Source: Rhodospirillaceae bacterium (GTDB taxonomy: Bacteria > Pseudomonadota > Alphaproteobacteria > Rhodospirillales > Magnetovibrionaceae). From it: a stretch of 17,071 nucleotides of DNA. The stretch is from positions 1 through 17,071 of the forward strand of contig NVTL01000031.1 in assembly GCA_002401565.1 (NCBI GenBank), read 5' to 3'. The stretch's first letter is position 1; each line of letters opens with the position of its first letter. Below are positions 1,516-15,882 of this stretch, piece after piece. Under the pieces are notes generated by a model. The model did no database searches, had not been told where the DNA came from, and was given only the letters and a program-made list of their open reading frames with translations. A program made the translations under genes and the position numbers.

Positions 1516-2178
1516 GTGTCGCAAATCCCCTTTGATTTTGATCCTCGCCCGGCTCTTGGCGGCGAAGATTTTTTGGTCGCCCCTTCAAATGCCCAAGCCG
1601 TGAAATGGGTCGAAATGTGGCCCAATTGGCCGCGTCCGGTGTTGGTTATTGTGGGCTTGGAAGGCTCTGGAAAAACCCATCTGGCGAACGTCTTTTTGGC
1701 TCAAACAGGTGCTCGACTTATTACCCCCGAAGACTTGAAATTAGGCGCCGATAAAGCCCTGGACGGACAATCTGCAGTGGTGCTTGAAGATATACAGGGC
1801 TTTGTGGACGCCGGGCTGTCTGACGATCTGTTCCATCTGTATAATTTAGCGGTCGAAGACGATAAAAAGATTTTGATGACGTCCAATCAAGCCCCGGCGC
1901 GCCTAAGCATCGCCCTCAAAGATTTAAGCTCTCGGCTGAACACCGCCACCGTGGCAGAAATTTTGCCGCCCGACGATGCGTTGTTGGCGGCGTTGATCGT
2001 GAAACAGTTTTCCGACCGCCAACTCAGCGTCAGTCAGGACGTTTTAGATTATATGATGACGCGCATGAACCGAAGCTTTTCAGGTGTCCGTGATTTGATT
2101 AAAGCCGTCGATACCTTGGCCTTGGCGGAAAAACGGGCCATCACCAAGCCGTTGGTGCGCCGCGTGCTCAGCCTTTAA
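1516..2178 (+). CDS. hdaA: HdaA, DnaA-homologous regulatory inactivator
   Basis: A 220-residue AAA+ protein related to DnaA domain III. In alphaproteobacteria HdaA works with the sliding clamp to stimulate ATP hydrolysis by DnaA and so limits re-initiation of replication. The N-terminus carries QIPFDF (residues 3-8), which fits the clamp-binding motif of Hda proteins. The Walker A is GLEGSGKT (47-54), the Walker B-like strand is AVVLEDI (87-93), a sensor I region reads LMTSNQAP, and an arginine-finger-like DLSSRLNTA follows. The start is GTG at 1516: the clamp motif must lie at the extreme N-terminus, and the codon sits one base after the upstream stop, consistent with coupled translation and the lack of a strong Shine-Dalgarno. 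Length matches the short Hda/HdaA class. Confidence 0.93.
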   Translation: MSQIPFDFDPRPALGGEDFLVAPSNAQAVKWVEMWPNWPRPVLVIVGLEGSGKTHLANVFLAQTGARLITPEDLKLGADKALDGQSAVVLEDIQGFVDAGLSDDLFHLYNLAVEDDKKILMTSNQAPARLSIALKDLSSRLNTATVAEILPPDDALLAALIVKQFSDRQLSVSQDVLDYMMTRMNRSFSGVRDLIKAVDTLALAEKRAITKPLVRRVLSL

Positions 2179-2191
2179 ATAGGGAAAAAAC

Positions 2192-2237
2192 AAAAAAATA
2201 AGACCGCTAACCAGGGGGGGTGAGGTTAGCGGCCTTA
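2192..2237 (-). terminator. Strong intrinsic terminator reading on the minus strand
   Basis: Minus-strand stem of 14 pairs (2237-2224 with 2212-2199, one G-U), an 11-nt loop rich in C, then U7 at 2198-2192 and a second U6 at 2190-2185. On the plus strand the same stem has a mismatch and is followed by GTCTTGTCG rather than a T-run, so it is a poor terminator for hdaA. Confidence 0.75.
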
Positions 2238-2302
2238 GTCTTGTCGTAACGCTTCTCTTCATTGAGGGAGGGGGGTCCCAAACGAGGAGTATCTTAGCGT
2301 TT
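2192..2302 (-). ncRNA. Candidate small RNA, two hairpins with C-rich (anti-Shine-Dalgarno) loops
   Basis: Read on the minus strand, a TATAAC -10-like box (2314-2309) precedes a candidate start near 2302. The RNA would then contain AACGCU (2301-2296) pairing with AGCGUU (2253-2248). Inside this stem are CUCCUC (2289-2284) and a small hairpin GGGA-CCCCCC-UCCC (2279-2266). After a short linker comes a 14-bp terminator stem (2237-2224 with 2212-2199) whose loop holds seven C, followed by U7. The stem is fully paired only in the minus-strand RNA, where one pair is G-U; the plus-strand copy has an A-C mismatch. No minus-strand gene needs this terminator. Two hairpins of about 110 nt with anti-SD loops resemble the CCUCCUCCC (cuckoo) sRNAs of alphaproteobacteria, though that exact motif is absent. 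There is no convincing -35. The transcript is inferred. Confidence 0.5.
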
Positions 2303-2464
2303 TAGTCAGTTATACCTAATTTATGTGGGCACCATTTGGGGCATTACAATGGTTAATTTGCTTTTATTTAGATATGTATTCTTTTTTTATGCGGGTGAAG
2401 CGTGATACGTTAGGTGTCATTGGTCGTAAGCGTTGAAATGAATGTAAATTTTATGGATTTTTAA
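2238..2464. other. Intergenic region upstream of ppk
   Basis: With the terminator next to it this makes a 286-bp gap between hdaA and ppk. The part near hdaA holds the candidate minus-strand RNA. The remainder (about 2303-2464) is AT-rich and should carry the ppk promoter, but no -35/-10 pair stands out. A partial Pho-box resemblance near 2413 (GTGTCAT) is too weak to call. The ppk start has only GGA (2455-2457, 7 bases upstream) as a Shine-Dalgarno. No small ORF with a credible ribosome site was found. Confidence 0.5.
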
Positions 2465-4603
2465 ATGAGCCCTTCAAAAACACCTGCTGTTTCCCTGACC
2501 TCAACCGATCGATTTAACAATCGGGAGTTGTCGTGGCTGGCGTTTAATACGCGGGTTTTGGAAGAAGCCATGAACAAACACCATCCGTTGTTGGAGCGGG
2601 TGCGTTTTCTCAGCATTTCTGCGGCCAACCTGGATGAATTTTATATGGTGCGTGTGGCCGGACTGAAAGGCCAAGAACGCGCAGGTGTATCGACAATCAG
2701 CCAAGACGGCCTGACACCATCCCAACAATTAGAAGCCATTAACGAAGCCGCTCAACGCCTGATGGTGGAACAGCAGCGCATTTGGGTGGTTTTAAAAGAC
2801 GAACTGTCGACCGAAGGTATTCAGGTTTTGGGCCGCGAAGAATTATCTGCGCGCGATAAAAAATGGTTGGATAGCTATTTTATGGATCATATCTTTCCGG
2901 TGCTTATCCCGCTGGCGATTGATCCGGCTCACCCCTTCCCGTTTATTCCCAATTTGGGCTTTTCGTTGGTGATGTTGTTAAAACAACGTAAATCCGGCCA
3001 AATGTTGAGAGCCTTGTTGCCGATTCCGCATTTGTTGACCCGCTTTGTCCGTTTGCCCGGTGCGTCCATTCGCTTTATTCCCATCGAAGAACTGGTGGTG
3101 TTGTTTTTAGACCGTCTGTTTCCGTCTTATGATCCGGTGCAAATCGCTAATTTCCGGCTTATCCGCGACAGCGAAATGGAAATCGATGAAGAAGCCGAAG
3201 ATTTGGTACGAACCTTTGAAAGTGCTTTAAAACGGCGGCGCCGGGGCTCGGTCATTCGCCTGTCCGTGAACGTGGACATTCCCGAAGACTTAGAAACCTT
3301 GGTCATGGACGCGATTAACGTCGAAGAAGACGATGTGTTCCGCCTGAGCGGTATTTTGGGTATGGCCGATTTGTCGAAATTGATCGTCAAAGAACGCCCG
3401 GACTTGCAGTTTGAGCCGTTTAGGGCGCGTTTTCCCGAACGGGTGCGTGATTTTGGCGGCGATGTGTTCGAAGCCATCCGCAAAAAAGATTTGGTGGTTC
3501 ATCACCCGTACGAAAGTTTTGACGTGGTGGTACAGTTTGTGCGCCAAGCCGCCCGCGACCCTAAAGTCGTCGCCATCAAACAAACCCTGTACCGCACATC
3601 CAATGACAGCCCGATTGTCGAGGCTTTGATCGAAGCCGCCGAATTGGGCAAATCGGTCACCGCCATGGTGGAATTAAAAGCCCGCTTTGACGAAGAAGCC
3701 AACATCCGCTGGGCACGGGATTTAGAACGCGCGGGCGTGCAGGTCATTTATGGATTTATGGACAAAAAAACCCACGCCAAGGTCAATTTAGTGGTGCGCC
3801 GCGAAGGCAAAGGCTTGAAGTCTTATGTGCATTACGGCACCGGAAATTATCACCCGATCACGGCCAAGGTTTATACCGACCTGTCGTTTTTCACACAAGA
3901 TCCAAAGCTGTGTGCCGATGCGACCCGATTGTTTAATTATATGACCGGATACGCCAAACCCGAAGGCATGGAAAAACTGGCTTTTTCCCCCATTACGTTG
4001 CGCGATTCCCTGTTGGCTTACATCGATGTTGAAATCAAAAATGCCAAGGCCGGAAAACCTGCGGGCATTTGGGCAAAAATGAATTCCGTGGTGGATGTCA
4101 CCATGATTGATGCTTTGTATAAGGCTTCTCAAGCCGGCGTTAAAATCTATTTGGTGGTGCGGGGTATTTGTTGCCTACGCCCCGGCGTTAAAGGGCTTAG
4201 CGAAAATATTCAGGTCAAAAGTATTGTTGGGCGGTTTTTGGAACATGCGCGCATTGTCGCGTTTGCCAATGGTCAGGATTTACCATCACGCGAAGCCAAA
4301 CTGTATATTTCTTCGGCCGATTGGATGTCTCGAAACTTAGACCGCCGGGTCGAAACCTTGGTACCGATTGAAAACCCAACCGTGCACCGTCAAGTGTTGG
4401 ACGAAATTATGGCCTTAAACATCAAAGACACCGAACAAAGTTGGATGCTGACCTCTGATGGACGTTATGAACGGGTATCTGTAAAAGATGGTCTTAATGT
4501 TCACCATTATTTGATGAACAATATCAGCCTGTCGGGGTTGGGGACAAAACAGGGCAAAGTGAAAACAAAGTCTAAATCTAAGTCTAAGAAAAAACGGTCA
4601 TAG
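2465..4603 (+). CDS. ppk: Polyphosphate kinase 1
   Basis: A 712-residue cytoplasmic or membrane-associated enzyme that reversibly polymerises the gamma-phosphate of ATP into inorganic polyphosphate through a phosphohistidine. All PPK1 parts are present: the N-terminal [17 protein letters not shown], the head region [19 protein letters not shown], and the two PLD-like catalytic domains. The phosphoacceptor is His437 in KKTHAK and the second catalytic His is His456 in [10 protein letters not shown]. Their 19-residue spacing equals that of E. coli H435/H454. The length is usual for the family apart from a C-terminal Lys/Ser tail. ppx follows after 26 bases in the same direction, giving the classical synthesis/degradation pair. 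The start ATG 2465 is the only one that keeps the conserved N-terminus, though its Shine-Dalgarno is weak. Confidence 0.97.
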
Positions 4604-15318: not shown

Positions 15319-15882
15319 ATGACTTTTGCGTCCAATTCGACCTTTGATGTTGCGTTTTGGTTTTCAGATCAGGCTTTGAATGAAAACGAGTATCTGCAAC
15401 CCCAAAAACTGCACCGCTTGCTGTATTTGTCGCAGGGCTTTTACGCGATTGCTTATGATGGTCAAAAATTGATGCCGGCGGTATTTGTCGCCGAAGAAAT
15501 GGGACCTATTGAACCCACCCTGTTTCAGGCGTTTGCCAATGGCCGCCCCGACATTGAAGTGGAATTGTTTCTGCCGTCGGATGTTGAATTGTTTTTAAGT
15601 TCGATCTGGCGCCGCTTTGGCCATTTAAAGACTGAGCAATTGTCGAAACTCACCACAAAAAATGCAGCTTATGCCTTGGCTTTGCGCAAAGGCCCCGGCA
15701 CGGAAATCCTTTTGGACGCCATGGTGGCGACGTTAAAAGCCGAAACGGAAAAGAAAGCCGCCGATCCGGTGCGCGCACCCCATCCAGACGCGCGCGTTCT
15801 GCGCACGCAACATGGATCAGAGGTCAAGGTGAAGTCATGGGCTCCCGGTGCGGCTCCCGGTGCTGCTCCCGGCCTTAAATGA
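15319..15882 (+). CDS. Panacea domain (DUF4065, SocA-like) protein
   Basis: 187 residues. Residues 8-115 fit the Panacea/DUF4065 fold: FDVAFWFSDQALNENEYLQP, QKLHRLLYLSQGFYAIAYDG, then the EEMGPIEPTLFQAF segment, which corresponds to the conserved GP(V/I)xPxLYxxF core. Known members include Caulobacter SocA, an antitoxin that delivers the toxin SocB to ClpXP, and many antitoxins of diverse toxin-antitoxin pairs; others are stand-alone. Here no small toxin gene is adjacent: the neighbours are two GGDEF genes on the other strand. The C-terminus is a low-complexity tail ending in APGAAPGAAPG, encoded by repeated GCTCCCGGTGC units. The Shine-Dalgarno is weak (AGG, 15305-15307). The domain is cytoplasmic; its role is unknown. 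Confidence 0.8.
   Translation: MTFASNSTFDVAFWFSDQALNENEYLQPQKLHRLLYLSQGFYAIAYDGQKLMPAVFVAEEMGPIEPTLFQAFANGRPDIEVELFLPSDVELFLSSIWRRFGHLKTEQLSKLTTKNAAYALALRKGPGTEILLDAMVATLKAETEKKAADPVRAPHPDARVLRTQHGSEVKVKSWAPGAAPGAAPGLK

Follow-up and report, generated by a model that had tools for sequence, protein, structure and literature searches.

What does a strong minus-strand terminator end when it lies in the 286 bases between an hda-like gene and ppk, both of which are read from the plus strand? The question arises in the window, the whole stretch of 17,071 nucleotides of Rhodospirillaceae bacterium DNA that was analysed, where the hda-like stop ends at 2178 and ppk starts at 2465. A sequence-only reading had proposed that the terminator closes an unannotated minus-strand small RNA with two C-rich hairpin loops, and comparison supports this candidate, which is kept in G007 and G009, the nearest two species whose assemblies include the locus. 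As judged from sequence, the element is very probably an uncatalogued small regulatory RNA encoded between two housekeeping genes. The interpretation favored here, which we consider probable, is that of a stand-alone gene whose sRNA acts in trans, belongs by function to the C-rich, anti-Shine-Dalgarno class and represents a new family of a narrow clade.

The element and its strand

Read directly on the minus strand, the interval runs from a TATAAC box through a hairpin with a C6 loop and a 14-bp hairpin with a C7 loop to a U7-G-U6 tract. The features of the locus are as follows.

2343..2350, minus strand: upstream promoter element ATTGTAAT (family form ATTGAAAT), 28 nt upstream of the -10 box, or about -48 to -41 if the start is 2302
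2309..2314, minus strand: -10 box TATAAC, followed by TGACTAAA; the motif used in the search was TATAACYGACTAA
2192..2302, minus strand: predicted sRNA of about 110 nt, its start placed from the -10 box
2248..2301, minus strand: hairpin 1, with C6 (2275-2270) and then UCCC in the apical loop
2199..2237, minus strand: terminator hairpin of 14 bp, whose 11-nt loop UCACCCCCCCU includes C7
2185..2198, minus strand: U tract, consisting of U7 (2198-2192), one G and U6
1519..2178, plus strand: hda-like gene (DnaA-like ATPase with an Hda lid), start putative, convergent with the predicted sRNA
2465..4603, plus strand: ppk, polyphosphate kinase 1, divergent from the predicted sRNA
2412..2441, plus strand: probable ppk promoter region, which aligns with the clearer TGACA...TTAAGCT form of G009

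The minus-strand fold of 2314-2185 has an energy of -44.2 kcal/mol (z -7.12), equaled by none of 200 shuffles, and all 14 terminator pairs form in it. The plus-strand fold has an energy of -36.9 (z -1.46), equaled by 17 of 200 shuffles, and contains a mismatch in the terminator stem. The folds of the two strands thereby bear out the proposal that the 14-bp stem, followed by U7, is fully paired only as minus-strand RNA, while direct reading and the fold confirm the description of a second, upstream stem with a C-rich loop and of the TATAAC box. A bidirectional terminator is ruled out, since the plus strand has no U tract after the stem. A short coding ORF within the transcript was also rejected: the frame that begins with an ATG in hairpin 1 runs through the terminator, and this ATG is absent in G009 (by eye). 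A scanner for consensus promoters and terminators listed neither the candidate terminator nor its promoter, in the first case because its loop limit is 8 and in the second because there is no TTGACA-like -35 at the usual distance. The same element is found on a second, partly masked contig of the genome (C97 of G000), with 96% identity over 310 bases, masked letters included; this copy is taken for a strain variant of the window locus.

Conservation and distribution

The nearest named relatives, as judged by Ppk, are Rhodospirillaceae bacterium NORP128 (G007, 96%) and Magnetovibrio sp. NORP274 (G009, 87%), with Magnetovibrio blakemorei MV-1 (G011), a cultured magnetotactic bacterium, more distant at 79%. 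Compared with G007, identity is 118/124 (95%) in the element (2191-2314), 118/150 (79%) in the spacer from 2315 to ppk and 126/136 (93%) at the start of ppk; compared with G009, the values are 83/120 (69%), 72/136 and 98/136 (72%), with gapped positions omitted from these counts (0, 3 and 0 for G007; 5, 22 and 0 for G009). The element is kept slightly better than coding sequence in the first comparison and slightly less well in the second. The G009 sequence alone folds into both hairpins, with CCCCC in each loop.

The full-length alignment of three species contains 32 pairs, with 93.8% of cells paired, as compared to 31-50% when the partner is slid; three pairs have changed on both sides, a number reached by 20 of 500 shuffles, with slid versions giving up to 2. 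The terminator hairpin could be aligned from eight species, in an alignment fitted to its own structure, and here both-sided change is seen in 12 cells, with a covariation score of 0.436; none of 500 shuffles reached either value. Both-sided change affects five of the 10 terminator pairs (reached by 38 of 500 shuffles; slid alignments give 0 or 1), and the 6 further pair types are no excess over shuffles, 489 of 500 reaching as many. The terminator loop, at the same place in all eight species, has a run of at least five C in seven of them and CCUCCCC in G014, and hence at least four C throughout. The C-rich loop of hairpin 1 is present in three of the six stand-alone forms (G000, G007 and G009); by eye, G010 has a different hairpin with a CUCCUC stretch, and a C-rich hairpin 1 is absent from G011 and G015. 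The terminator hairpin is the sole part common to all eight carriers.

A model of the terminator hairpin, built from six species, was run on the 18 genomes of the family, with up to 150 first-look candidates scored in each. Nine matches reached at least 38 bits, and all lie at the hda-ppk locus: those in G000 (two contigs), G007, G009, G010, G011 and G015, and those in two genomes absent from the model, G012 (42.7 bits) and G014 (38.0 bits). The best match elsewhere in the family, among the matches listed, was 31.8 bits. The element is carried by eight of the 18 genomes; wherever a contig holds both neighbors, it faces hda and has ppk behind it. The G014 match is located in the hda-ppk interval, the G012 contig has hda and further neighbors and stops before ppk, and the G007 contig begins at the element. 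A terminator with no C-run in its loop occupies the same place in G001, G002, G004 and G005; none was found at the locus in G003, G006, G013, G016 or G017, and the hda-ppk locus itself was not found in G008. Outside the family, ordinary terminators are among the matches of 30-40 bits, and the match in one genome (G143, 39.6 bits) outscores that in G014, so that the membership of G014 stands on place and not on score.

An order-wide scan of 317 genomes, under stricter filters, used a full-length model from three species and gave matches in 12 genomes. The three model members scored 118-150 bits by construction, followed by G015 (34.9) and G010 (27.0), and seven genomes of other families fell at 23-33 bits, overlapping the range of these two. 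Four of the seven were read, and each proved to lack the rest of the element, having just a terminator hairpin, ordinary or C-rich. Neither model recovered the Thalassospiraceae-like loci of G001, G002, G004 and G005, where a CCUCC stretch (CAUCC in G005) precedes the terminator at the same place; these are perhaps a diverged version of the same RNA, or possible relatives. Upstream of ppk in the loci L040-L043, this Thalassospiraceae-like form shows CCUCC (CAUCC in L042) in a hairpin on the minus strand, together with a strong terminator.

Promoter, neighbors and alternative origins

In the six stand-alone forms, ATTGAAAT-like letters lie 25-29 nt upstream of TATAAC-like letters. The two-part motif of 21 letters was defined post hoc, after looking at the sequences and after pairwise alignments, and it is found with one mismatch in G000, G010 and G015, three in G007, four in G011 and five in G009; six of 300 shuffles match as well in G009, and none in the other five. 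G014, which is outside the set that defined the motif, has four mismatches (1 of 300 shuffles as good) at a site preceding a chemoreceptor gene. Nine other genomes have 6-9 mismatches, with 31-214 of 300 shuffles as good; the values for G003 are 7 mismatches and 61 of 300. A looser pattern gave eight matches over nine genomes, of which five are at the locus (G000 twice, G010, G014 and G015) and three elsewhere in G015, with none in G007, G009, G011, G013 or G016; its reversed control gave four over the same genomes. The locus site is the sole match of the looser pattern in the G014 genome, where the reversed control also gives one. When the G014 promoter was aligned pairwise with those of four species, no alignment was significant (71, 173, 280 and 409 of 500 shuffles scored as well); the alignment of the non-carrier G006 with G000 was better than these (26 of 500).

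The position of the element within the hda-ppk interval, in a spacer common with ppk, raises the possibility that it acts on ppk in cis, as an antisense RNA or as a regulator, and the sequence-only reading had indeed placed it antisense to the presumed ppk leader. That placement was not borne out, as the probable ppk promoter lies between the element and ppk. Using a pattern that was loosened after inspecting sequences, a TGACA-spacer-TAAACT-like promoter was found 60-175 nt upstream of ppk in 13 of 16 genomes (G003 included), the point used as the ppk start in G001, G002, G004 and G005 being taken from the alignment and lying a few codons into the gene. The pattern is unmatched in G000, G007 and G017; G000 and G007 align with the G009 promoter site, the window stretch 2412-2441 itself having no pattern match. 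Wherever both are known, the ppk promoter lies nearer to ppk than the sRNA start does, and transcription of ppk therefore likely begins on the far side of the sRNA start. Furthermore, other frames intervene between hda and ppk (or the contig end on that side) in G010, G011, G012, G014 and G015, and the element is nonetheless retained, making a cis role in ppk expression very improbable.

A more modest view is that the hairpin is a plain terminator, shielding the ppk region as well as the hda unit that converges with it, with its C-rich loop incidental. Such a role would suit a hairpin that sits on the 3' side of hda and is the only part shared by every carrier, but the U tract is confined to the minus strand, on which the window has no ORF of at least 90 aa between the element and ppk, and the terminator is accompanied by a shared promoter motif. 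In addition, none of 94 background terminators has C5 or CCUCC in its loop. These were collected from 76 other ppk-bearing loci, mostly Rhodospirillales and some of the same family, with a custom detector strict enough to recover the C-loop terminator in only four of the eight carriers. Taken together, these points leave the plain-terminator explanation quite unlikely.

The most suggestive neighbor is a PAS-MCP chemoreceptor gene, found on the sRNA strand in G012 (502 aa) and G014 (497 aa), the two proteins being 78% identical. It ends about 50 nt upstream of the C-loop terminator in G014, and in G012 about 540 nt separate the two, with a short globin-like frame between (by eye). An ortholog in G017, 55% identical over about 500 aa and with a globin domain at its end, occupies the same place, and neither the promoter motif nor the C-loop terminator was found there. 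The gene thus lies between hda and ppk in G014 and G017, and beside hda in G012. With its C-terminal globin domain, the PAS-MCP at L187 (3328-5448), between hda and ppk, is a possible gas or redox taxis receptor; the globin part in G012 is apparently a separate frame. In a FastTree phylogeny of four neighbor genes from 16 of the 18 family genomes (some nodes 0.82-0.97), G017 is the earliest branch, and the free form of the element is found in one group made up of G000/G007/G009/G010 and in another, apart from it, made up of G011/G015, suggesting that this form arose at least twice. The simplest story from these sequences would be that an ancestral chemoreceptor gene was lost several times, gain in several lineages being also possible, and the arrangement suggests that the sRNA is a leftover of, or alternates with, a chemoreceptor transcription unit. 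In G012 and G014, the terminator 3' of the chemoreceptor gene need not be a stand-alone sRNA.

Two readings follow from this history. The element might be the mere remnant of a lost unit in which a PAS chemoreceptor once stood between promoter and terminator, with the leftover transcript having little or no function. The orthologous same-strand genes described above, one of them in the earliest branch, fit this explanation, as do the C-loop terminators 3' of the gene in G012 and G014 and the promoter motif upstream of the G014 gene. A junk remnant is unlikely, however, to hold 95% identity in G007, where the coding start of ppk holds 93% (69% against 72% in G009), and the both-sided pair changes and the kept C-run in the loop also argue against it. 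Coding remnants of the chemoreceptor were searched for near free forms and not found (best E 0.2), and an inert remnant is accordingly considered rather unlikely. The other reading, conceivable if somewhat doubtful, is of one promoter-terminator cassette with two contents, either a PAS chemoreceptor mRNA with a C-rich-loop 3' hairpin or, after gene loss at least twice, a free sRNA; the hairpin would have been a regulator first as a 3'UTR-derived RNA and would have outlived its gene. The locus offers a compact natural case for the birth of an intergenic sRNA, in which one can ask whether a 3'UTR hairpin outlives its gene.

Relation to known RNAs and proposed action

The favored reading, a stand-alone trans-acting sRNA, can be set against the known families. 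No Rfam family reached gathering in the window, nor in nine related loci. The suggested kinship to the cuckoo RNAs was not supported. The loops of these RNAs, and of the alpha-r14 / NfeR1 / suhB RNAs, are described as carrying CCUCCUCCC (PMC10746234, PMC3927594), which has no match on either strand of the window, and neither a cuckoo-like nor a suhB (RF00519) match was found at 2000-2600 with E up to 10. The likeness is in layout: both groups are alphaproteobacterial RNAs in which several hairpins expose anti-Shine-Dalgarno loops on drifting stems. The CcsR cuckoo RNAs are further reported to be cotranscribed with a DUF1127 gene and to have an RpoH promoter (PMC10253847), and DUF1127 is absent among the 14 window proteins scanned against Pfam (small ORFs were outside the scan). 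Elsewhere in the G000 genome, a weak suhB match (C31, 28494-28573, minus strand; 31.4 bits against a cut-off of 41) lies near a GGGGGGAGGGGGGATG stretch.

GsrN is of about the same size class as the candidate. The consensus used for sigma-EcfG, GGAAC-N15-18-CGTT, does not occur at the element, and its two matches in the window are 1.0 and 1.9 kb off, with a chance mean of 0.85. GsrN is described as a general-stress sRNA of Caulobacter with six tandem C in a 5' loop that pair with G-rich leaders (PMC5869019), and the loop of hairpin 1 likewise contains C6. The same report gives BLASTn homologs only in Caulobacteraceae, with further candidates assigned by their place at the ecfG/phyR locus (PMC5869019). 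Apart from C. crescentus itself, the GsrN-type locus is ecfG-nepR-phyR, whereas the element lies at hda-ppk in the window and in other carriers.

The C-rich loops of 6C RNA are reported to bind several mRNAs (PMC9569102, which cites Mai et al. 2019). This family (RF01066) was the Rfam lead with the most bits (24.9 against a gathering value of 47, E 0.45; a microRNA family in the same search had E 0.25), but it belongs to Actinobacteria, another phylum, and the likeness is probably convergent. PmaR, for which the report describes a C-rich loop shown to act on targets, has one spoon-like stem, unlike the two hairpins of the window element, and is reported there only from Agrobacterium species and one Rhizobium strain (PMC6234868). 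By the tests run, the element is not a cuckoo RNA, alpha-r14/suhB, GsrN or 6C RNA. It has the stable hairpins and conserved unpaired C-runs of the C-rich-loop regulatory sRNAs, and since cuckoo and alpha-r14 fail on the loop motif, and GsrN on promoter and place, it would form a new family of sRNAs whose functional class is known, in an evolutionary setting that is out of the ordinary. The earlier guess of a divergent or new family is to that extent supported. Literature searches for a published sRNA at the hda-ppk place found nothing relevant, which is not proof of absence.

In the proposed mechanism, minus-strand transcription would begin at the TATAAC promoter, with the ATTGAAAT-like element replacing the usual -35, and would end at the C-loop terminator. 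By analogy with GsrN, alpha-r14, PmaR and 6C RNA, the C6 of hairpin 1, together with its UCCC, and the C7 of the terminator loop would then pair with G-rich Shine-Dalgarno or leader stretches, altering the translation or decay of target mRNAs. G6 or G7 before ATG occurs 156 times in G000, against 58 for the reversed pattern (overlapping matches counted several times), and G7 alone 28 times against 13; G7 before ATG is commoner than its reverse in each of six genomes. This excess is slight and unspecific, and it fits pairing with the C-runs while hardly discriminating. Among 14 G-run places inspected, one G7, before the start of what is presumably an ABC-transporter ATPase-like gene, is kept in both G000 and G007.

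Little work has been done on this clade, and the element gives it an sRNA family that is not yet catalogued. Magnetovibrio blakemorei MV-1 has a related locus (L184/L052), between ppk and a peroxidase gene (L184, 6647-8848; Pfam peroxidase) which we take to be of the katG type. This gene is convergent with the sRNA and some 80 nt away. In Caulobacter, katG is described as a GsrN target (PMC5869019).

A second sRNA candidate was seen at a different locus, in genomes of a different family of the order (G143, G144, G137, G141 and G148), near 1460-1555 in L159, L160, L164 and L168 and on the reverse strand in L167. It consists of a CAGAYGTTGRCCT hairpin, a CAGCCUCCCUCUCU stretch shared by the five, and a terminator whose loop includes a C-run, and no Rfam family reached gathering in the four loci searched. 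Where the neighborhood was read (L176 and L177), it lies downstream of genes that we take to be hisI-like and CobW-like. Finally, the window itself encodes, at 15319-15882, a SocA/Panacea-domain (antitoxin-like) protein flanked by two GGDEF genes.
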